This document shows, one piece after another, positions 685 through 33,152 of a stretch of DNA of 33,928 bases. The notes below the pieces were generated by a model that was not told where the DNA came from, searched no databases, and saw nothing but the letters and a program-made list of their open reading frames with translations. Position 1 is the first letter of the stretch; each line of letters starts with the position of its first letter. A program made the position numbers and the translations under genes. Source of the stretch: a virus; the IMG/VR virus record IMGVR_UViG_3300034374_005257, positions 1 through 33,928 of that record. One strand, 5' to 3'.

Positions 685-1247
685 CAGAAGTCGTCTTCAA
701 TCTCTTGGGTAGGAGTGATGTTGGGTTCAGAAGCCTTGAAACCCTTTGTTTGGCCAAAGAGAGCCGCCACTTCAGTTTCACCAAGATCGCCTGCATCAAC
801 ACCTGCAGAGGTGCCAACGGAGACAACCTGGACTCCGACAAGCTTAAGACTTGTACCGTACGTGACACCATCGCGGAGGATGTATGGTTTCTGACGGAAG
901 GCAAGTTTAACGGTGCTACCACTGTAGATGGGAGTACTTTCATCGGTGATAGGTGTGCCTTCTGTATCCACCACGGGCGGACGTGTGTCTTCATTCCAAC
1001 TGAACTTAACTTTGTACTTGTTATCTGCAACCTCTTCCCAAGGCTCAGGCTTGAGAGTAGACCGCTTAGGATTCTTGAGCTTAGATTCTGCCCACTTGAG
1101 AGAATCAACACGATCCTCCTCAAGACGCTCGACAAGTTCTTTATCGACAAGAGCAGACAGAGAGTAGCCAAACTTACTTGGCTTCAGTACAGCTTGATAA
1201 CCTTCAAGGACAACAGGCTGTTGGGTAACGTGAATAGGTTGTGCCAT
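684..1247 (-). CDS. Single-stranded DNA-binding protein (T7 gp2.5-like)
   Basis: A 187-residue protein in the exact position of T7 gene 2.5, between RNA polymerase and endonuclease I. It should coat single-stranded DNA and organise the replisome. Sequence similarity to T7 gp2.5 is weak by eye. The C-terminus, however, is an acidic tail ending in an aromatic residue (EIEDDF), the hallmark of gp2.5-type SSBs, whose tail contacts polymerase and helicase. An upstream TTG at 1253 would extend the frame. I chose the ATG at 1247 because it forms a TAATG overlap with the polymerase stop codon, the coupling used repeatedly in this genome. Confidence 0.85.
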   Translation of the reverse strand: MAQPIHVTQQPVVLEGYQAVLKPSKFGYSLSALVDKELVERLEEDRVDSLKWAESKLKNPKRSTLKPEPWEEVADNKYKVKFSWNEDTRPPVVDTEGTPITDESTPIYSGSTVKLAFRQKPYILRDGVTYGTSLKLVGVQVVSVGTSAGVDAGDLGETEVAALFGQTKGFKASEPNITPTQEIEDDF

Positions 1248-3586
1248 TAGCAAAAAAAGTAGGTGGATTCGATGACGGATTCTGGTTCAAGATCTCCGAC
1301 AATCGGTGGTTCGGTCTCCGCTCCTATGTGAGAAGCGAAGTCCCGCAGGTAGTCATGCTCTGCAAAGAGGTGCATGTAGGTTTCTCGTACAATGGAGGAC
1401 AAGGAAGACATGTCCGTTGCACGACAAAGGACAGAATCATGAATGAGAGCAATGGGTGAATCAAACCGTAAGACACTCAAATGTAACAAGCTTGCATCGA
1501 GGCTGTGGATAAGATTAGGAGCTGTTGCGTTCTTGTGATGGTTGAGATCAACCTCATCAGAATCATCAACTGCTACCTGCATCTTACAACGACCCAAAAG
1601 CTGTAACTCAATAGAGACAATCAGCTTCTTGTTTAGCTTTTGATGAACAACAAATCCAGATGGTGTTGTCCAACGCAGATACTCTTTACCAGATTTAATA
1701 GCAGTTGCTACTTCATCTTCGATCCATTTCATGACAGCCATAGGACCAGGTACGACAACATCCATGGCATTGCGTACAGCCTTAACTGTCTTAGTTAGAT
1801 CCTCTTTGCTGATTTCTACACCCTTCTCTTTAAGTGCGTCTCTGATGTACCCACGATTTGAGAAGGGTTTGGCATTGTAAGGGACGGTCATTACGACACG
1901 CTTAACTGTCTTTCTATCCATGTAAGGTTGGATAGATTCAGGGCAGTGAGGCGTGGCTTCTTCAGCAACAACCTTGTATGCGTCCTGTGGCTTATCACCA
2001 GGTAAGACATTCACAAGACGTGCTGTAGACTTATCTCTAGCTAATCCAGCTAGGATTTGTAGACCTGAACAAGTAGCATCTGTAGCTACCATAAGACGTG
2101 TGAACTGCCTATCGGCAACTACGACACAATGATAGTACTCTTCTGCTGCTGCTAGAAACTGCCAAGGTTCCTCTACATTCTCCCAAAGGTGTAAATTACC
2201 AATGGGATTTTGCGATATGAGTGTGAATAATTCATGATTATTTCTTGCCCATTCAAGACGCTCAGCCATTGGTGCTTTATCAAGACCGAATGTAGTAGCT
2301 ACTTGAAAGGCTAACCAATCCTCAGATTCAGGTGTTACATAAGCACCTTCATAGAAAATTAATAGACTTTTTCCAAAGTCTGTATCTTGAGGAGTAAGGA
2401 AGGCAGGAATAGGATAAGCTCTTCCTCTATAGTCAAAGCTCCAAGGTATGTAAAACTTAGCTACGTCCTTGAACCTTTTCACTGCCTCCAGTGTCATCCG
2501 AGTGCGACAAGATTTCTTAAACTCTTGTGCATTCAGATTCATTACCTCTGCCGCTGCTCTTCGATATACTTTACGAGACTCTCTGTTCTCTGCAATATCG
2601 TAAGGCTTTGGAGGTAATTCATGATTCACTATAGGGAGGAACTTACCAACTGCTCGTTCCAATCTATCTAGTTCTTCCGCAACCCCTACAATAAAAGGAT
2701 TTAGAGTAAAGGCAACCTTCTGAATCTTGTTCAGAAAGTTGATCGGTGTTTCTCCCTGTATACATGTGGGATCGCCCCTGCGTACCAGATCATGCCCACG
2801 CATAACCTCATTCAGTAAGTACCCACCAGCACGTTCGTTTGTCCAATCGTTGGGTTCAATCAACATAGGCCAAGCAAGCGGAGCAAATAGCTCAGCATCA
2901 CTCATCACCTTGTCCTTGATTGAGATGAACTCAGGCGTAGGTACGACGTAGTTAACACGCTTGCGCCCCTCTTGACGCATGTCTTTAGTGAACCACTGTG
3001 ATGTCTCAATGATACAATCAAGTAACCACGCACCGAGTTTGATGCGGTTTGCTCTGCCCCATGATTGCCATTGTTGAATATCACTACGGTTCATCAATGT
3101 TTGAATGACCGTTAGCTTCTGCTCAGTACCACATGACTTGTGCCAGTAGTTCTTCTTCAAGGTGTTGAGAAGACCAGGTGCACATCGTTCATAGTAACGC
3201 ATCTGACATTCAGCTTCAACAGCTGAACCGATACCATCACATACGGATTGAACTTGATCACTGCCTTCCTTATAACTGAACACCTTATCAAAGGTTAGCT
3301 TGAGTGCAATAGCTGCAGCAGCAAGAGGTTCAAGCTCACTGATGTATTGTGCAATCTCTTTGAATGCAACACCAGTTTTACCTTCATGGATACGATTGTT
3401 TGTATCCTCAAGACGCTTCACCAATATAGGTAAAAGCATATCAATGGACGCAATACCATATACCGCAGCAGATGCGTAGCTGCGTTGCTGTAATGCGTCC
3501 GTGTTATCCCGTAATCGCTTGAGTCCCTGACGTATCTGATCACGCTCAAGCTGCACCTGTTCATCAATTTGAGCAGGTGTAGGCAT
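1247..3586 (-). CDS. DNA-directed RNA polymerase, single-subunit T7 type (gp1)
   Basis: A 779-residue phage RNA polymerase that should transcribe the middle and late genes. Visible landmarks are the DYRGRAYP block near residue 385 (T7 has DWRGRVYA); motif A, ATDATCSGLQ, with D503; motif B, KRVVMTVPYNAKPF, with K562 and Y570 spaced as T7 K631 and Y639; and motif C, LIHDSV, with D717. It is about 100 residues shorter than T7 RNAP (883), mainly in the N-terminal half. It ends in YFFC rather than the T7 C-terminal FAFA foot. The start has a good Shine-Dalgarno sequence (GGGAGG) and a TGATG overlap with the small ORF upstream. It ends the small-gene early cluster and is probably read by host RNA polymerase from the promoters near 6240-6805. 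Confidence 0.97.
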   Translation of the reverse strand: MPTPAQIDEQVQLERDQIRQGLKRLRDNTDALQQRSYASAAVYGIASIDMLLPILVKRLEDTNNRIHEGKTGVAFKEIAQYISELEPLAAAAIALKLTFDKVFSYKEGSDQVQSVCDGIGSAVEAECQMRYYERCAPGLLNTLKKNYWHKSCGTEQKLTVIQTLMNRSDIQQWQSWGRANRIKLGAWLLDCIIETSQWFTKDMRQEGRKRVNYVVPTPEFISIKDKVMSDAELFAPLAWPMLIEPNDWTNERAGGYLLNEVMRGHDLVRRGDPTCIQGETPINFLNKIQKVAFTLNPFIVGVAEELDRLERAVGKFLPIVNHELPPKPYDIAENRESRKVYRRAAAEVMNLNAQEFKKSCRTRMTLEAVKRFKDVAKFYIPWSFDYRGRAYPIPAFLTPQDTDFGKSLLIFYEGAYVTPESEDWLAFQVATTFGLDKAPMAERLEWARNNHELFTLISQNPIGNLHLWENVEEPWQFLAAAEEYYHCVVVADRQFTRLMVATDATCSGLQILAGLARDKSTARLVNVLPGDKPQDAYKVVAEEATPHCPESIQPYMDRKTVKRVVMTVPYNAKPFSNRGYIRDALKEKGVEISKEDLTKTVKAVRNAMDVVVPGPMAVMKWIEDEVATAIKSGKEYLRWTTPSGFVVHQKLNKKLIVSIELQLLGRCKMQVAVDDSDEVDLNHHKNATAPNLIHSLDASLLHLSVLRFDSPIALIHDSVLCRATDMSSLSSIVRETYMHLFAEHDYLRDFASHIGAETEPPIVGDLEPESVIESTYFFC

Positions 3587-5355: not shown

Positions 5356-5658
5356 TCAAACGTTATCAAGAACCCACTGACAGTATGTCTCGATGACATG
5401 CCATACCATGACCTGTATCATACCTTGAACACTCGTAGTATTCTTGGCAACGATAGACATGAAGTCATCACCGAGAGTGTCATAACAAACATCCTCGATG
5501 TCGTCTTCATAGTCATGGAAGAACTTGGTAGTCTCGTGGTAGTAAATGAAACCAGAGACACCCATGGCACAACCATGATTGGCTATGTCACGTACTTCAT
5601 CCATATCTGTGAAGCGCTCAGCGAGCACATCAGTCAGGGTTTGTGTGTAAAACAACAT
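5356..5658 (-). CDS. Early protein resembling the DUF7222 family
   Basis: A protein of about 100 residues with the block DIANHGCAMGVSGFIYYHET, followed by an acidic FFHDYEDDIEDVCYDTLGDD. The pattern NHGxxxGxSGFIYYxxTxxFxxxxxxxI is one I associate with small phage proteins of the DUF7222 group, function unknown. I took the ATG at 5658 (MLFYTQTLTDVLAERF). A start at 5688 would add ten hydrophobic residues, making a membrane or signal segment that such proteins normally lack. The gene lies among the early genes, with a 28-base gap to the next ORF downstream. The family match is from memory and moderate. Confidence 0.65.
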   Translation of the reverse strand: MLFYTQTLTDVLAERFTDMDEVRDIANHGCAMGVSGFIYYHETTKFFHDYEDDIEDVCYDTLGDDFMSIVAKNTTSVQGMIQVMVWHVIETYCQWVLDNV

Positions 5659-5719
5659 GATTAGCGTAAGTAAACTACAGAAAAGCATCAACGATGTGAT
5701 GCCAAAGTGTAACTAACTA

Positions 5720-5965
5720 TCAACCAAGCTGAAGAGCAAGGGTAGAAGTACGAGCTGCATTGATGCAGTTCTCGTTAACCCAGAACCCAAGGCTCATGTT
5801 CTTGTTGAGCAACAGGTTAGCAATAGCACGACGGCTAACGTTGCTGTACTGGTAAGAGTAACCATTGCGGAACTCAACAAGCACAGTACCGTAGAAAGGA
5901 TTGACAAGCAGCTGATACACTGCGTCAGAGGTACGGTTGGTAACAGCAATGAAGTTGTTGAACAT
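5720..5965 (-). CDS. KTSC-domain-like early protein, 81 residues
   Basis: The central region, VLVEFRNGYSYQYSNVSRRA, followed by LLLNKNMSLGFWVNENC, matches the KTSC pattern: a strand ending xxFxNGxxYxYxxV, then a helix and Sx(G)xxxN. The domain was first noted at the end of some lysyl-tRNA synthetases and is common as a free small protein in phages. Its function is unknown, with suspected nucleic-acid binding. This is the first clear gene downstream of the long non-coding region with host-type promoters, so it is probably among the first phage proteins made. One copy of the 14-base repeat lies 23 bases upstream of its ATG. Confidence 0.7.
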   Translation of the reverse strand: MFNNFIAVTNRTSDAVYQLLVNPFYGTVLVEFRNGYSYQYSNVSRRAIANLLLNKNMSLGFWVNENCINAARTSTLALQLG

Positions 5966-6239
5966 GTAAACAAAAGCAAGTGAATGAGTGCGTCCCTGAG
6001 TATCGCTTCCACCTCAGCATCAGACGCATGAAGCCATGAGCAAACTTGTATAGCGCCTGTGGCTCGGCGCTGGTGACGGCTAGTCGCCGTTTGGTGGTGC
6101 TCACCCTTCTCGGCGTGACACAGCTGGCACCTAAGGAGTGTACCCTAACCCACAACCGGAACCCGCTCGGCAGTTGTGGCGGCAGTGACCCGTGGTCCTA
6201 CTCAGCTCAACTATTCAGTTGTCTAGGTTCGATGCTCTC

Positions 6240-6268
6240 ACCATAGCATGGCTGAGCTGGTTTGTCAA
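6240..6268 (-). promoter_or_regulatory. Host sigma70-type early promoter
   Basis: On the minus strand the -35 box TTGACA (6268-6263, perfect consensus) is separated by 17 bases from TATGGT (6245-6240, four of six). It faces the early genes and RNA polymerase, with a leader of about 270 bases before the first gene. It would be read by cyanobacterial RNA polymerase at the onset of infection. Confidence 0.55.
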
Positions 6269-6341
6269 GGAGTGGTGGTCGGCTTGTCAGGTGGCACTGT
6301 GCCAAGGGCTGCTTGCCGTATTCAGTTGTCGGTGTCTCTCA

Positions 6342-6415
6342 CTCTCTTGATTGAAGGATCGAGACTCTCCTCACCCTTAACAGGGAGAGTCGAGATACTC
6401 AATCTTCAAAGAGAG
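6342..6415 (-). promoter_or_regulatory. 74-base nested hairpin in the early leader
   Basis: Three nested stems pair across this stretch: CTCTCTT/AAGAGAG (6342-6348 with 6409-6415), GATTGA/TCAATC (6349-6354 with 6399-6404) and GACTCTCC/GGAGAGTC (6363-6370 with 6384-6391), with a 13-base loop. No T run follows on either strand, so it is not a simple terminator. It lies downstream of two of the early promoters. It could be an RNase III processing site as in T7 early mRNA, a small structured RNA, or an element of the genome end. Confidence 0.5.
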
Positions 6416-6499
6416 TGGAGGTGTCAGCCTACAGCACCGAGGTGGTGGACAGTGGCAGCAAGTGGCACATAGTACAGCCTGATCCATTGCAGTGCAGTG

Positions 6500-6528
6500 G
6501 TTATCAGTCCTGCTTATAATACAGTCAA
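6500..6528 (-). promoter_or_regulatory. Host sigma70-type early promoter
   Basis: On the minus strand TTGACT (6528-6523) and GATAAC (6505-6500) are separated by exactly 17 bases. Both boxes are close to consensus. It points to the early genes, with the 74-base hairpin in its transcript. Confidence 0.5.
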
Positions 6529-6556
6529 TCGCTGTAATCCATTGGTATCACTGGGT

Positions 6557-6580
6557 TCTCAATAAGGTGTACTATTGAGA
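6557..6580. repeat. 8-bp inverted repeat, possible operator or hairpin
   Basis: TCTCAATA (6557-6564) and TATTGAGA (6573-6580) form a perfect inverted repeat around the eight bases AGGTGTAC. It lies about 30 bases upstream of the promoter at 6500-6528. It could be a protein-binding site or an RNA hairpin from the promoter further upstream. Confidence 0.35.
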
Positions 6581-6645
6581 GCAGACAGATTGTGTGAGAT
6601 GTGATTATGCGTGGTGCCGCATAGTTGCTGCCTCGTGGCGTGCGC

Positions 6646-6686
6646 GTGTCCAGCGTACCTGTGCCTGATGCAGATGCTCTGGACAC
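6646..6686. repeat. 8-bp inverted repeat with 25-base spacer
   Basis: GTGTCCAG (6646-6653) and CTGGACAC (6679-6686) are perfectly complementary. They lie in the GC-rich part of the junction region, next to a 10-base direct repeat (CGTGTGCCTG at 6695-6704 and 6719-6728). The function is unknown. Confidence 0.4.
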
Positions 6687-6777
6687 ACCACATGCGTGTG
6701 CCTGCGGGTGTGGGCGGGCGTGTGCCTGTGCGAACACGGGGTACCCCTATGGGGGGGCTGCGGCGCTGAGCCAGCGT

Positions 6778-6805
6778 AGTATTAGACTTGAGAAATTTCT
6801 GTCAA
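6778..6805 (-). promoter_or_regulatory. Possible third host sigma70-type promoter
   Basis: On the minus strand a perfect TTGACA (6805-6800) is followed after 16 bases by AATACT (6783-6778, four of six). The spacer contains the palindrome AGAAATTTCT (6791-6800, touching the -35 box), which could be an operator. It is weaker than the two promoters downstream, because the -10 box and spacing are not ideal. Confidence 0.35.
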
Positions 6806-6841
6806 AAATTAAAGCCCCCTCTACAATGACCTAGAAGAGCG

Positions 6842-7132
6842 TTATTCTTTATCAACCGTGTCGATATACCAAGGAGCAGTTAAACGCATCTCAGGGAGGC
6901 TTGTAGACGTGTCTGACGGGCTTTCTTCGTACACAGGGGACACCATATCAGCAACATGAAGCGTTTCCCAAGTCTTAATCGCTTCATCTACCTCTACTTT
7001 AACCCGATTATCAACTAATTTTTGTTCAATCCACACTAAAAGACCTAGAAGCAGGTGATCCAACCAAGGAATACCTGCTTTCCAGTGTCTATAAAGGATT
7101 TTAAACTCATTTAACTTAAGTTCTTGTCCCAC
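6842..7132 (-). CDS. Unknown protein of 96 residues downstream of thyX
   Basis: The protein begins MGQELKLNEFKILYRHWKAG. A moderately hydrophobic segment (WLDHLLLGLLVWIEQKLVDN) follows, then an acidic part with VEVDEAIKTWETLHVADMV and a C-terminus ending YIDTVDKE. The hydrophobic stretch is short and contains charges, so it reads more like an amphipathic helix than a membrane span. The gene overlaps the thyX 3' end by 22 bases and is probably co-transcribed with it. I do not recognise a family. It is the last gene before the non-coding junction region. Confidence 0.65.
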   Translation of the reverse strand: MGQELKLNEFKILYRHWKAGIPWLDHLLLGLLVWIEQKLVDNRVKVEVDEAIKTWETLHVADMVSPVYEESPSDTSTSLPEMRLTAPWYIDTVDKE

Positions 7133-7752
7133 ATTGCTTCACATACGTTAGGAAGGTGTTGATACAACAAGTCTTGTACCTGACCTGCTATCTGTGCGTG
7201 TTCTTTTTGCGTACCATTACTAGTTCTTAGGTCACAATAATGCAACCAAGACCTAATAGTACCGTTCATGTACAACTTAGTAGGAGCTGCCATAGGAAGT
7301 ACTTCTCTTGCACACTCCTTAGCTACCCCAGCTGCTACCAGATCTTTATAGAGACCATAGCAATCAGAGTAAAGACTACCAATCCTAAACTGGAAGTTCT
7401 TCTTTAGCACATCATCTAGATCATCAATACTATTTTGTCTGTTCTTTGTATCTTGTCTACGAAGTTCAGGTATTGATGCCGGGACTGTTACTTCTGCATA
7501 CCGTTGACTAAACTCTTGAAAGCTAAAACTCCTATGCCTAAGGATCTGTGCTGCAATACTACGTGTTGTTTCTATTTCTACACACATGTTAACCATTTCA
7601 AAGGGTGACCAATGTTGATGGTTAATAAGATACTTAATTAGTTTAGCACTGGTCTCAGTGTTTGATTGATTACTTGGGTTAGATACCCTAGCCATGTAAC
7701 TAATAAGTTCTTCAGCGTTAGGAGTGATGTGTACGAGGGTGGTGGAGTGCAT
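7111..7752 (-). CDS. thyX: FAD-dependent thymidylate synthase ThyX
   Basis: ThyX makes dTMP from dUMP using methylene-tetrahydrofolate and reduced FAD, supplying dTTP for phage DNA. The signature RHRX7S is present as RHRSFSFQEFS (residues 72-82 from my start), followed by QRY. The C-terminal part has the family block AREVLPMAAPTKLYMNG...IRSWLHYCDLR. The 213-residue length fits cyanophage ThyX. I chose the ATG at 7752 (MHSTTLVHITPNAEEL) because homologues begin just before the VHITP segment; a GTG at 7815 would add 21 unlike residues. Unusually, it lies between the terminase-end terminator and the early promoters, away from the replication genes. Confidence 0.93.
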   Translation of the reverse strand: MHSTTLVHITPNAEELISYMARVSNPSNQSNTETSAKLIKYLINHQHWSPFEMVNMCVEIETTRSIAAQILRHRSFSFQEFSQRYAEVTVPASIPELRRQDTKNRQNSIDDLDDVLKKNFQFRIGSLYSDCYGLYKDLVAAGVAKECAREVLPMAAPTKLYMNGTIRSWLHYCDLRTSNGTQKEHAQIAGQVQDLLYQHLPNVCEAMWDKNLS

Positions 7753-7898
7753 ACAGTAGTATAAGTAGTGACGGGATTCAGAAGGATGGAGAGAATCAGT
7801 ACTCACTAGATTCACCCGTTAAAGGAGATGGAGTAGATGAATGAACTAAGAGGGAGATGTTTGTCTTTGGAGTCTTTGTTCCCTCACTGTTCATTAGT

Positions 7899-7949
7899 AA
7901 AAAAAGGGGAAGATGATCAAGACAACTTGTTTGTCTTGGAGTCTTCCCC
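7899..7949 (-). terminator. Strong rho-independent terminator after the packaging genes
   Basis: On the minus strand GGGGAAGA (7949-7942) pairs with TCTTCCCC (7913-7906). Inside this, AAGACAA pairs with TTGTCTT (7937-7931 with 7925-7919) around a five-base loop. Seven T residues follow directly (7905-7899). This is the expected end of late transcription after the large terminase. It would separate that operon from thyX unless read-through occurs. Confidence 0.85.
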
Positions 7950-7976
7950 CTCCAGGAGTCGGGTCCACCCTTCCCT

Positions 7977-7994
7977 TCCCCTGTATACATGTGG
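7977..7994 (-). repeat. 18-base repeat shared with the RNA polymerase gene, intergenic copy
   Basis: CCCTGTATACATGTGGGA lies here and also at 2756-2773 inside the RNA polymerase gene, in the same orientation. After one mismatch both copies continue with CGC. About one such pair in a hundred genomes of this size would be expected by chance. Confidence 0.6.
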
Positions 7995-8005
7995 GACCGC
8001 TCTTA

Positions 8006-8036
8006 AACCCAGTGTGGGCCTGGGTTCACACCCAGG
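8006..8036 (-). promoter_or_regulatory. Two mutually exclusive hairpins across the terminase stop codon
   Basis: CCTGGGT/ACCCAGG (8019-8025 with 8030-8036) forms a perfect 7-bp stem with a four-base loop containing part of the terminase stop codon. The alternative stem AACCCAG/CTGGGTT (8006-8012 with 8020-8026) uses the same bases. Such a pair could protect the mRNA 3' end or act as a switch. It may also be incidental. Confidence 0.4.
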
Positions 8037-9756
8037 TAGGGACTGACTTTTTACCAGCCAACATTCTAGCTTGTTTACGTTGGTCTAAATTCATTCCAAA
8101 CACCATATGATTAGCTGCTGATTGAGGGTCATCTAACCAAGCTTCTTGTAAATCATTCCAATCTTCTTGTCGTCTTTGTTTAACGACTTCATGAGCTGAG
8201 ATAGCAAGAGCATCTGTGAAGTATTTAACACCTTGAGCTAATGAGTCTAGTCTATCATCGTGTCTTACGGCACCTTTTTCCCGACACATCCTTGACATCT
8301 GATAGAACAACATGTAAAGGAGTCTAGTTTCGGGTGCGGCTTCCTTATTCGAGTTGAAGTCCCATTCCACCACAGACCGATTAACAATAAGCTTATGTTG
8401 ATTAAGAATAGGCTCAAGGGTATCAATAATACGGTCTTCTTTTCGAACATTAGCACGGACTTCTTCAATGTCAATAGCTTGTTTAGTTTGTTGAAGATGT
8501 TTACGGAATAGTTCTGCTACGATACCATCACCAAAGTTAGTTTCAATAAGAAGTTTAGTTACACCGTATTTCTTACAACCTCTAAGGATGTCTAACAAGG
8601 TATTATCACTATAACCGTCTTGGTAAGCACGTATTTCATGTAGATAGATAAACCCATTACGTTGACTAAGGAAGGAAGCTGCTGTTTCGTCAGTACCACG
8701 ACCACTAGGGTCCACACTACAAATGGTTTCAGTGTAAGGTAACCAATCACCTTGCATAACCATAGGTGAGTAGAAGTAGTCTCCCGGTAACCCTACGGTA
8801 GGTAGATCTTTAATAACATTACTTGGATCACTACACCACACCACAGAATCAGGACATTCAGTAGGGTTAACTGATGTAACAATCAGGTCTTGCATCTTAA
8901 GTGGGAACTTTTCAGCATCACTAAGACTGGTGTCTAGCATGAATTGTAGCATAAAATTGCTACGACCCATTGATGCTTCACGTTCAATCAGATCGTCATC
9001 AGAGAAACGGTCTGGATCTGTTACTGCCCAAGGTTCAATACCACCTTCAATGTCTTCCTGTACTTGTGGTGCAAGGAGTCCTTCGTAGTTAGATAGTTTA
9101 CGTGGGTAACGTGCTGGCCAAACAAATGGTTTGTAGTTACGTTCAGCAAGCTTACGGTAGATGGTAAAGGTAGTCTGTGGTGTACCAAGGTACATAATAC
9201 GGCTGTCTTTCTTTGGTGTAAGAATAGATTCAGCCTCAGTACAAAGTTGAAGGAGTTTCTCTCGCATCATCTCTGTCATCGAGTTACCCGGCACCTCAAT
9301 ATCGTCTAGGATCATTAGGTCAGCACGAGAACCAGTTAGCTGACCCGTAATACCAACCGACTTAACGGATGGTGCTTGGTGAGGACTACATTGCACATCA
9401 AAGCTAATACGAGACCAACGTGCATCATCACTCTTTGGTCTCAAATGTGATAGCCACGGTGTCTCAATGATCAGCTTCTGTAGAAAGATAGACATGTTAT
9501 CAGCTCGCTCCTTAGAAGCCGAGATAATCATGATCTTCTTTTCGGGGTTATTGAAGAGTGTCCATAAGACAAACGCACCAGTAATCCACGATTTACCGAC
9601 TCCTCGGAAAGCTTGGATCTGTAGTCGTTTAGGACCGTGTTGTAGGTAATCAGCAATAGCGTATTGAGCTCGGGTTGGGGAGGGTAGGTCTAGTTGTTGC
9701 CACAAAGCTTGAAGAAACAACTTAAAATCGTCTTTAAGGGCGTCTAAAACATTCAT
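8026..9756 (-). CDS. terL: Terminase large subunit / DNA maturase B (T7 gp19-like)
   Basis: The 576-residue ATP-driven packaging motor and genome-cutting nuclease. Walker A is AFRGVGKS (residues 49-56), followed by the adenine/coupling region IISASKERAD. Walker B is LMILDD (147-152), and GTPQTTFTIY forms motif III. The RNase H-like nuclease domain has VDPSGRGTDE with D349, ETNFGDG near 405 and HDDRLDSL with D500/D504. All match T7 gp19 closely; ITGQLTGSRAD and LPKVGL-type blocks are also shared. It assembles with the small subunit encoded at 11681-11932 and binds the portal. Two nuclease genes and a hairpin separate it from that subunit, and it is the last gene before a strong terminator. Confidence 0.97.
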   Translation of the reverse strand: MNVLDALKDDFKLFLQALWQQLDLPSPTRAQYAIADYLQHGPKRLQIQAFRGVGKSWITGAFVLWTLFNNPEKKIMIISASKERADNMSIFLQKLIIETPWLSHLRPKSDDARWSRISFDVQCSPHQAPSVKSVGITGQLTGSRADLMILDDIEVPGNSMTEMMREKLLQLCTEAESILTPKKDSRIMYLGTPQTTFTIYRKLAERNYKPFVWPARYPRKLSNYEGLLAPQVQEDIEGGIEPWAVTDPDRFSDDDLIEREASMGRSNFMLQFMLDTSLSDAEKFPLKMQDLIVTSVNPTECPDSVVWCSDPSNVIKDLPTVGLPGDYFYSPMVMQGDWLPYTETICSVDPSGRGTDETAASFLSQRNGFIYLHEIRAYQDGYSDNTLLDILRGCKKYGVTKLLIETNFGDGIVAELFRKHLQQTKQAIDIEEVRANVRKEDRIIDTLEPILNQHKLIVNRSVVEWDFNSNKEAAPETRLLYMLFYQMSRMCREKGAVRHDDRLDSLAQGVKYFTDALAISAHEVVKQRRQEDWNDLQEAWLDDPQSAANHMVFGMNLDQRKQARMLAGKKSVPTWV

Positions 9757-31947: not shown

Positions 31948-32097
31948 TTACTTCTTCTTAGCTGTCTTAGCTGCCTTCTTAAATTGAGCAGCAGTAGGAG
32001 CACCGGCAGTACCAGGCTTCCTCATCTTCTCACCACTACCAGCAGCAATACGCTTACGCTTGGCATGGATGTTTGCATAGAGTCCAGGTTTAGCCAT
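31948..32097 (-). CDS. Small basic protein of the [14 protein letters not shown] type
   Basis: A 49-residue, strongly basic protein: [35 protein letters not shown], then AAQFKKAAKTAKKK. The start [17 protein letters not shown]...GxGExMRKPG recurs in many cyanophages, as far as I remember without a known role. Its ATG overlaps the psbA stop as TAATG, so it is translated with psbA. The Lys-rich tail suggests contact with nucleic acid or with acidic capsid or scaffold surfaces. It was too short to appear in simple ORF lists. Confidence 0.8.
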   Translation of the reverse strand: MAKPGLYANIHAKRKRIAAGSGEKMRKPGTAGAPTAAQFKKAAKTAKKK

Positions 32098-33152
32098 TAG
32101 CCAATTACCGGTGCAGTGTGTGTAGCCAGGTCGAGGGGGAAGTTGTGCGCGTTGCGCTCGTGCATCACTTCAAAACCAAGACCAGCTCGGTTAAGGATGT
32201 CTGCCCAGGTGTTAATCACTTGCCCTTCAGATGAGAGAAGCGATTGGTTGAAGTTAAACCCATTCAGGTTAAACGCCATTGTAGAAACACCAAGAGCAGC
32301 AAACCATATACCCAAAACGGGCCAAGCAGCAAGGAAGAAATGAAGGCTACGGCTATTATTGAAACTTGCATATTGGAAGATCAAACGACCGAAGTATCCA
32401 TGAGCAGCTACAATGTTGTAGGTCTCTTCTTCTTGCCCAAATTTATAGCCTTTGTTTTGGCTTTCGATTTCTGTGGTCTCCCGTACCAACGAGCTAGTCA
32501 CAAGGGAACCATGCATCGCACTGAAAAGCGACCCACCGAACACTCCTGCTACTCCCAACATGTGGAAGGGATGCATCAAGATGTTGTGCTCCGCTTGAAA
32601 GACGAGCATATAGTTGAACGTCCCACTGATTCCAAGAGGCATGGCGTCCGAGAAGGAGCCCTGACCGAAGGGATAGACCAAGAAGACTGCAGTAGCTGCT
32701 GCCACTGGTGCGGAATAAGCGACGAAAATCCATGGTCGCATTCCTAGTCGATAGCTAAGTTCCCACTCTCGTCCCATGTAAGCATAGATGCCAATGAGGA
32801 AGTGGAAGACGGTAAGCTGGAAAGGACCGCCGTTGTAGAGCCATTCGTCAAGTGAATTAGCTTCCCAAATTGGGTAGAAGTGTAGTCCGATGGCATTGCT
32901 GCTCGGAACGACGGCTCCCGATATGATGTTGTTTCCATAGAGAAGGCTCCCAGCTACAGGTTCGCGGATGCCATCAATATCGACTGGTGGTGCCGCTACG
33001 AATGCGATGATAAAACAAATGGCTGCAGCAAGGAGACACGGAATCATCAGTGTTCCAAACCAGCCAACATAAAGACGGTTATCTGTACTGGTTACCCAGT
33101 CACAAAAACGCTCCCAGTAGTTCTGAGAGCGTGAAGCTGCAATTGCAGTCAT
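32097..33152 (-). CDS. psbA: Photosystem II reaction-centre protein D1
   Basis: A 351-residue D1 protein, used by cyanophages to keep photosystem II working while host D1 is turned over. All expected functional residues are present (about one less than standard numbering): TyrZ Y160, manganese ligands D169, E188, H331, E332, H336, D341 and the A343 mature end, plus H197 for chlorophyll. Residue 129 is Glu (standard 130), the form associated with high-light D1. The C-terminal extension after Ala343 is only eight residues (THTAPVIG), about half that of typical cyanobacterial D1, as in Prochlorococcus-like D1. Five membrane helices are intact and there is no intron. It lies between an RlpA-like gene and a 49-residue ORF. 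Confidence 0.98.

Follow-up and report, generated by a model that had tools for sequence, protein, structure and literature searches.

Two conserved end signals predict a collapsed terminal repeat between the terminase and early genes of a cyanopodovirus contig

In the IMG/VR record IMGVR_UViG_3300034374_005257, a virus contig of 33,928 bases (at full length, the window) which from its genes is a fragment of a T7-like cyanopodovirus, the segment between the large terminase gene and the early genes is very probably a concatemer junction. The genome, from a T7-like cyanophage, would be linear and bear fixed direct terminal repeats, which assembly would have collapsed to one copy. An earlier reading, made from the sequence alone, had placed one such collapsed repeat between 5966 and 7950. 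I find this supported, as related phages have their ends at this place and the end signals are conserved, and the repeat can be narrowed to 6591-6781, its most likely exact position. The starting observation of that reading was borne out in part, namely that the terminase adjoins the early genes (terminase at 8026-9756, early genes from 5965 downward, both on the minus strand). The features at the predicted ends are:

6782-6807, minus strand: right-end element of 26 nt, TTTTGACAGAAATTTCTCAAGTCTAA, the predicted recognition and cut site of the terminase, placed by the 26-nt spacing found in four phages
6591-6781, minus strand: predicted direct terminal repeat of 191 bp, a single collapsed copy, with edges given by the two-signal rule described below
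6738-6757, minus strand: C-rich block with the inverted repeat CCCCCCCATAGGGGTACCCC, 25 nt into the repeat, positioned as in P-SSP7, S-TIP37 and T7
6584-6590, minus strand: ATCTGTC, a predicted concatemer-junction pause sequence immediately past the inner edge, the motif being that of T7, Syn5, S-TIP37 and S-SBP1

The two end signals in phages with known ends and in the window

Exact terminal repeats are present in the records of P-SSP7 (206 bp), Syn5 (237 bp), S-TIP37 (150 bp) and S-SBP1 (180 bp), and the order is the same in all four: terminase, thyX or talC, repeat, leader, early genes. In the latter three, thyX is the final annotated gene ahead of the repeat. At the outer edge, the distance from the first T of TTTTGRCA to the start of the repeat is exactly 26 nt in every one of these phages, and at the inner edge A[TC]CTGT[TC] follows directly after the repeat in every one as well (ATCTGTT in Syn5, ATCTGTC in S-TIP37 and S-SBP1, ACCTGTT in P-SSP7). 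The 160-bp repeat of T7 is preceded by AAAAATCTGAGTGACTA and followed by ATCTGTT. About 25 nt into the repeat, a C-rich inverted repeat is found in T7 (CCCCCATAGGGGG), P-SSP7 (CCCCCGTAGGGGGG) and S-TIP37. In relatives whose ends are deposited or were mapped by experiment, the gene order matches that of the window and the ends sit at this place.

On its minus strand, the window reads TTTTGACAGAAATTTCTCAAGTCTAA up to the outer edge, TACTACGCTGG ... CCCCCCCATAGGGGTACCCC ... CACACA within the repeat, and ATCTGTC beyond the inner edge. These signals match those of the phages with known ends in order, spacing and orientation, and they lie 191 bp apart. In an alignment with ten close relatives the edges of the repeat are conserved and its interior is hypervariable, with substitutions as well as insertions and deletions, as expected if selection acts on the edges.

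In order to assess how general the signals are, I surveyed IMG/VR relatives together with named phages, which gave 80 non-redundant junctions and 59 stretches that reach from terminase to RNA polymerase. The right-end element was present in the gap between these two genes in 50 of the 59 stretches by the first criterion, and five recognisable variants bring this number to 55. An ATCTGT was observed 100-330 nt past the element in 73 of the 80 junctions, once in each, compared with a mean of 5.5 and a maximum of 15 in first-order Markov shuffles and with 16 on the opposite strand.

The left end of the full-length metagenomic contig IMGVR_UViG_3300046171_000151 (44,137 bases, listed as linear without end repeats) was read only after the phages with known ends had revealed both signals. 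On the right this contig stops at the base preceding ATCTGTC. Its left end falls 2 nt inside the predicted outer cut, and the repeat is present at both ends with one mismatch between the copies. Several related contigs end inside the predicted repeat, and one ends 6 nt short of the inner edge. As hypervariable non-coding DNA breaks assemblies anyway, I do not count such partial contig ends as proof and use only the full-length contig with two ends.

Some observations weigh against a collapsed repeat at these edges. Four of the 59 spanning stretches have no recognisable element, and of the four reference phages P-SSP7 had its ends sequenced from virions, those of Syn5, S-TIP37 and S-SBP1 being taken as deposited. 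The window motif is ATCTGTC and that of T7 is ATCTGTT, though the final C is common to S-TIP37 and S-SBP1. With five occurrences of A[TC]CTGT[TC] on the minus strand in 33.9 kb, the inner-edge motif is weaker evidence for the window taken alone. The window would hold a single collapsed copy, and a second physical copy is predicted for this virus; no exact repeat was found between the record's own ends, and within 5500-8200 there were no direct repeats of interest.

Transcription signals and alternative readings

The sequence-only reading had leaned on a strong terminator and three early host-type promoters, and these reasons were right only in part: the terminator marks no end and one of the promoters is the right-end element. 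The transcription signals concerned are:

7899-7949, minus strand: intrinsic terminator of the right arm, between terminase and thyX (-25.2 kcal/mol, z -4.3, followed by U7)
6240-6268, minus strand: probable early host-type promoter, TTGACA-17-TATGGT with an extended -10 TG, from the consensus scan and matches in close relatives

The terminator is real, but with thyX still to follow and the predicted end about 1.1 kb further on, it is no end marker. Its position suggests that thyX and the following ORF of 96 amino acids (aa) are transcribed separately or at a lower level. As a set, the three promoters found no support, as a consensus scan of 5700-8200 gave five promoter-like sites against 3.3 +/- 1.9 expected from shuffles. 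Two good minus-strand sites lie in the gap, at 6805-6778 and 6268-6240. The former is the conserved right-end element, and the latter, the early promoter listed above, is partly retained in S-TIP37. The Syn5-type phage promoter matched in the window only at chance level.

Could the conserved motifs simply be the promoter, terminator and leader of a gap between operons, with the genome ends elsewhere? The element does score as a sigma-70-like promoter, and its surroundings include a plausible early promoter as well as a leader. However, in four records the spacing between element and repeat is exactly 26 nt, in P-SSP7 the element overlaps the end of talC, and promoter-like sites are not above chance in number, so that I consider this explanation hardly credible. 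Headful packaging from a pac site is only slightly less improbable. It would yield circularly permuted genomes without fixed ends or a repeat, which naturally assemble as circles; the contig indeed crosses the region unbroken, and circular or permuted records are the majority among its relatives. However, P-SSP7 itself was first assembled as a circle and thought to be permuted, until sequencing of its virion ends revealed a linear genome with a fixed 206-bp repeat (PMC3350473). The T7-type terminase, the conservation of both end signals and the full-length contig that ends at the predicted cuts argue against headful packaging as well.

A collapsed repeat with its inner edge further right, giving about 400 bp, is unlikely, but less so than the other two. 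An example is the CCCTGTT near 6384, in the loop of a hairpin described below, which resembles the ACCTGTT inner edge of P-SSP7 and is common in close relatives. At this position S-TIP37 and others read CCCTGAAAGGG, whereas the S-TIP37 repeat ends at ATCTGTC, and the CCCTGTT was therefore rejected as the inner edge. Moreover, ATCTGT is kept at the predicted place across the clade, and the known repeats span 150-237 bp.

Formation of the ends, the hairpin and the leader

In a linear genome with a 191-bp terminal repeat, the right end of the virion DNA would carry one copy of about this length (6591-6781) after terminase, thyX and the 96-aa ORF, and the left end a second copy ahead of the early leader and the early genes. 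Thus thyX and the small ORF, which the sequence-only reading took to be either the last or the first genes, would be the last, as indicated by the gene order and end signals of the relatives. In the cell, genomes would recombine via the repeat into concatemers. By analogy with T7, the 26-nt element (6782-6807) may be recognised by the terminase complex, with the cut made where the element ends, and the ATCTGTC at 6584-6590 may be a pause site for the phage RNA polymerase as it transcribes across the junction. Completion of the right end and the start of packaging would take place at the inner edge, which the pause site would mark. The order of the genes, the signals with their spacing, and their conservation are observed; the two copies, terminase binding and pausing are what I infer. 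Class II sites of sequence ATCTGTT are known to arrest T7 RNA polymerase, and the Syn5 polymerase also gave terminated products on such a template (PMC9624206). Class II terminator sites occur at the phage concatemer junction (PMC11617373).

Beyond the inner edge, folding and comparison with relatives identified a further conserved structure:

6336-6420, minus strand: conserved, covarying long hairpin, about 170-200 nt inward of the repeat and ahead of the early promoter

Its 69-nt core folds with -29.3 kcal/mol (z -4.0). The hairpin is present in 30 junctions, which were chosen by the loop-proximal core sequence alone; in these, 157-279 nt separate the core from the pause site. Distinct full-length copies have the same fold, and their outer arms differ in sequence yet pair (for example ACTCTCTT/AAGAGAGT, GTCTGGT/ACCAGAC, AGCTGGC/GCCAGCT and AGTTTGT/ACAAACT). 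A second search, in which pairing was required, gave about 30 strong cases among 85 junctions, but as it selects on pairing it is no independent test. RNAalifold on the sequence alignment recovered the core only, which is due to the outer arms being difficult to align. In S-TIP37 and S-SBP1 the same hairpin lies inside the junction.

A role of the hairpin in concatemer processing, for the repeat copy at the left end, is possible, as is an RNase III element. How T7-like phages make the second repeat copy is still incompletely understood (PMC3350473). It is conceivable, if rather doubtful, that a nicked or extruded hairpin primes this copy at the left end as part of the end-forming machinery. 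If true, the hairpin, the 26-nt element and ATCTGTY would constitute a full processing cassette common to many cyanopodoviruses. In any case, the analysis singles out a conserved hairpin as an element that can be tested in cultured phage.

The leader at 5966-6260 (minus strand) consists of about 260 non-coding nt with conserved blocks common to diverged relatives (CGAACCTNGACAAC, GCCGAGCCACAGGCG and TTTGCTCATGGC), and is possibly a structured leader RNA. No Rfam family matched in the window, and no tRNA or tmRNA was found in it or in seven phage records. The non-coding early leaders of S-SBP1 and P-SSP7 contain stem-loops that resemble a tRNA T-arm (CAGGG-TTCGAGT-CCCTG and similar), in which ARAGORN found no tRNA.

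Gene layout, related systems and deposited records

The genes in question are all encoded on the minus strand, and from high to low coordinates their order is psbA, capsid and tail genes (assigned from size and order against S-CBP4), terminase, thyX, the 96-aa ORF, the non-coding stretch 5966-6841 and the early genes. After the early genes, which run from 5965 downward, follow RNA polymerase, single-stranded DNA-binding protein and endonuclease. As the early genes and the RNA polymerase continue on the strand of the terminase, right-arm and left-arm genes meet in the window, which encodes both a T7/gp19-type large terminase and a T7-like RNA polymerase.

32097-33152, minus strand: psbA, from the gene list
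8026-9756, minus strand: large terminase, gp19-type, a right-arm gene (PHROG 38, E 5.5e-118)
7111-7815, minus strand: thyX, FAD-dependent thymidylate synthase, predicted next-to-last gene of the linear genome (PHROG 85, E 5e-80)
6842-7132, minus strand: 96-aa ORF, predicted last gene of the linear genome (phrog_22672, E 2.4e-40)
5720-5965, minus strand: 81-aa ORF, predicted first gene of the linear genome, at the left end (phrog_7365, E 2.7e-34)
1247-3586, minus strand: phage single-subunit RNA polymerase of 779 aa (PHROG 414, E 2.9e-217)

By its match to phrog_22672, the 96-aa ORF is a member of a real family, and a small ORF after thyX is annotated in S-CBP4, S-CBP1 and S-SRP01 too. The closest named relative is the Synechococcus phage S-CBP4 (KC310804), with 95.5% identity of the terminase protein and about 81% DNA identity across the matching early and RNA polymerase region; the terminase is 64-84% identical to those of Syn5, P-SSP7, S-TIP37 and S-SBP1. 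The primase-to-portal/scaffold stretch of S-CBP4 is absent from the window record, which is thus an incomplete genome with right-arm genes running into left-arm genes. S-CBP4 has the same junction signals, with ATCTGTAG at the inner edge. However, it was deposited as a circle, and the break of the record falls inside the predicted repeat.

A close known parallel is P-SSP7 (Sabehi and Lindell 2012, PMC3350473), which shares with the window the succession of terminase, last genes, repeat, leader and early genes, the right-end element at 26 nt, the C-rich inverted repeat and, before its ends were sequenced, assembly as a circle. It differs in its last gene (talC, where the window has thyX), in the inner-edge motif (ACCTGTT versus ATCTGTC) and in the unrelated interior of the repeat. 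S-TIP37 and S-SBP1 resemble the window in having thyX as the last annotated gene, in following the rule at both edges with ATCTGTC at the inner one, and in the hairpin, whereas length and interior of the repeat differ and no separate small ORF is annotated after thyX. T7 shares the ATCTGTT just past the repeat, CCCCCATAGGGGG about 25 nt in and AAAAATCTGAGTGACTA before the cut, but it has neither TTTTGRCA nor thyX, the last base of its pause site is different, and a quick fold of its left end showed no comparable cyanophage-type long hairpin. The junction logic of T7 is retained across very diverged cyanophages.

Collapsed ends are in themselves ordinary biology, and the gain is a usable rule for finding ends. 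Among cyanopodovirus genomes, whether of isolates or metagenomic, many are deposited as circles or cut arbitrarily. Judged from these sequences, the two signals (a cut 26 nt from the start of TTTTGRCA and an end before AYCTGTY) appear to place both ends to the exact base without reads. The rule also assigns the first and last genes correctly, and flags misplaced ends in the records of P60 and S-B28.

Three deposited terminal repeats were rejected as physical ends. The 127-bp repeat of S-B28 (1-127 and 45298-45424) is inside the terminase gene, away from the junction signals, the 141-bp repeat of S-SRP01 is at the start of the record, upstream of the terminase gene and off the junction signals, and the 447-bp repeat of S-RIP1 is within the capsid gene, off the junction signals as well. 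All three look like assembly overlaps. The annotated repeat of S-B28 (MK016662) matches a common assembler k-mer in length, and the junction signals are found elsewhere in this genome. In P60 (AF338467.2), the rule sets the junction at about 43070-43325, just past thyX. The five ORFs that follow thyX in this record, gp51-gp55, would then mostly be left-end genes.
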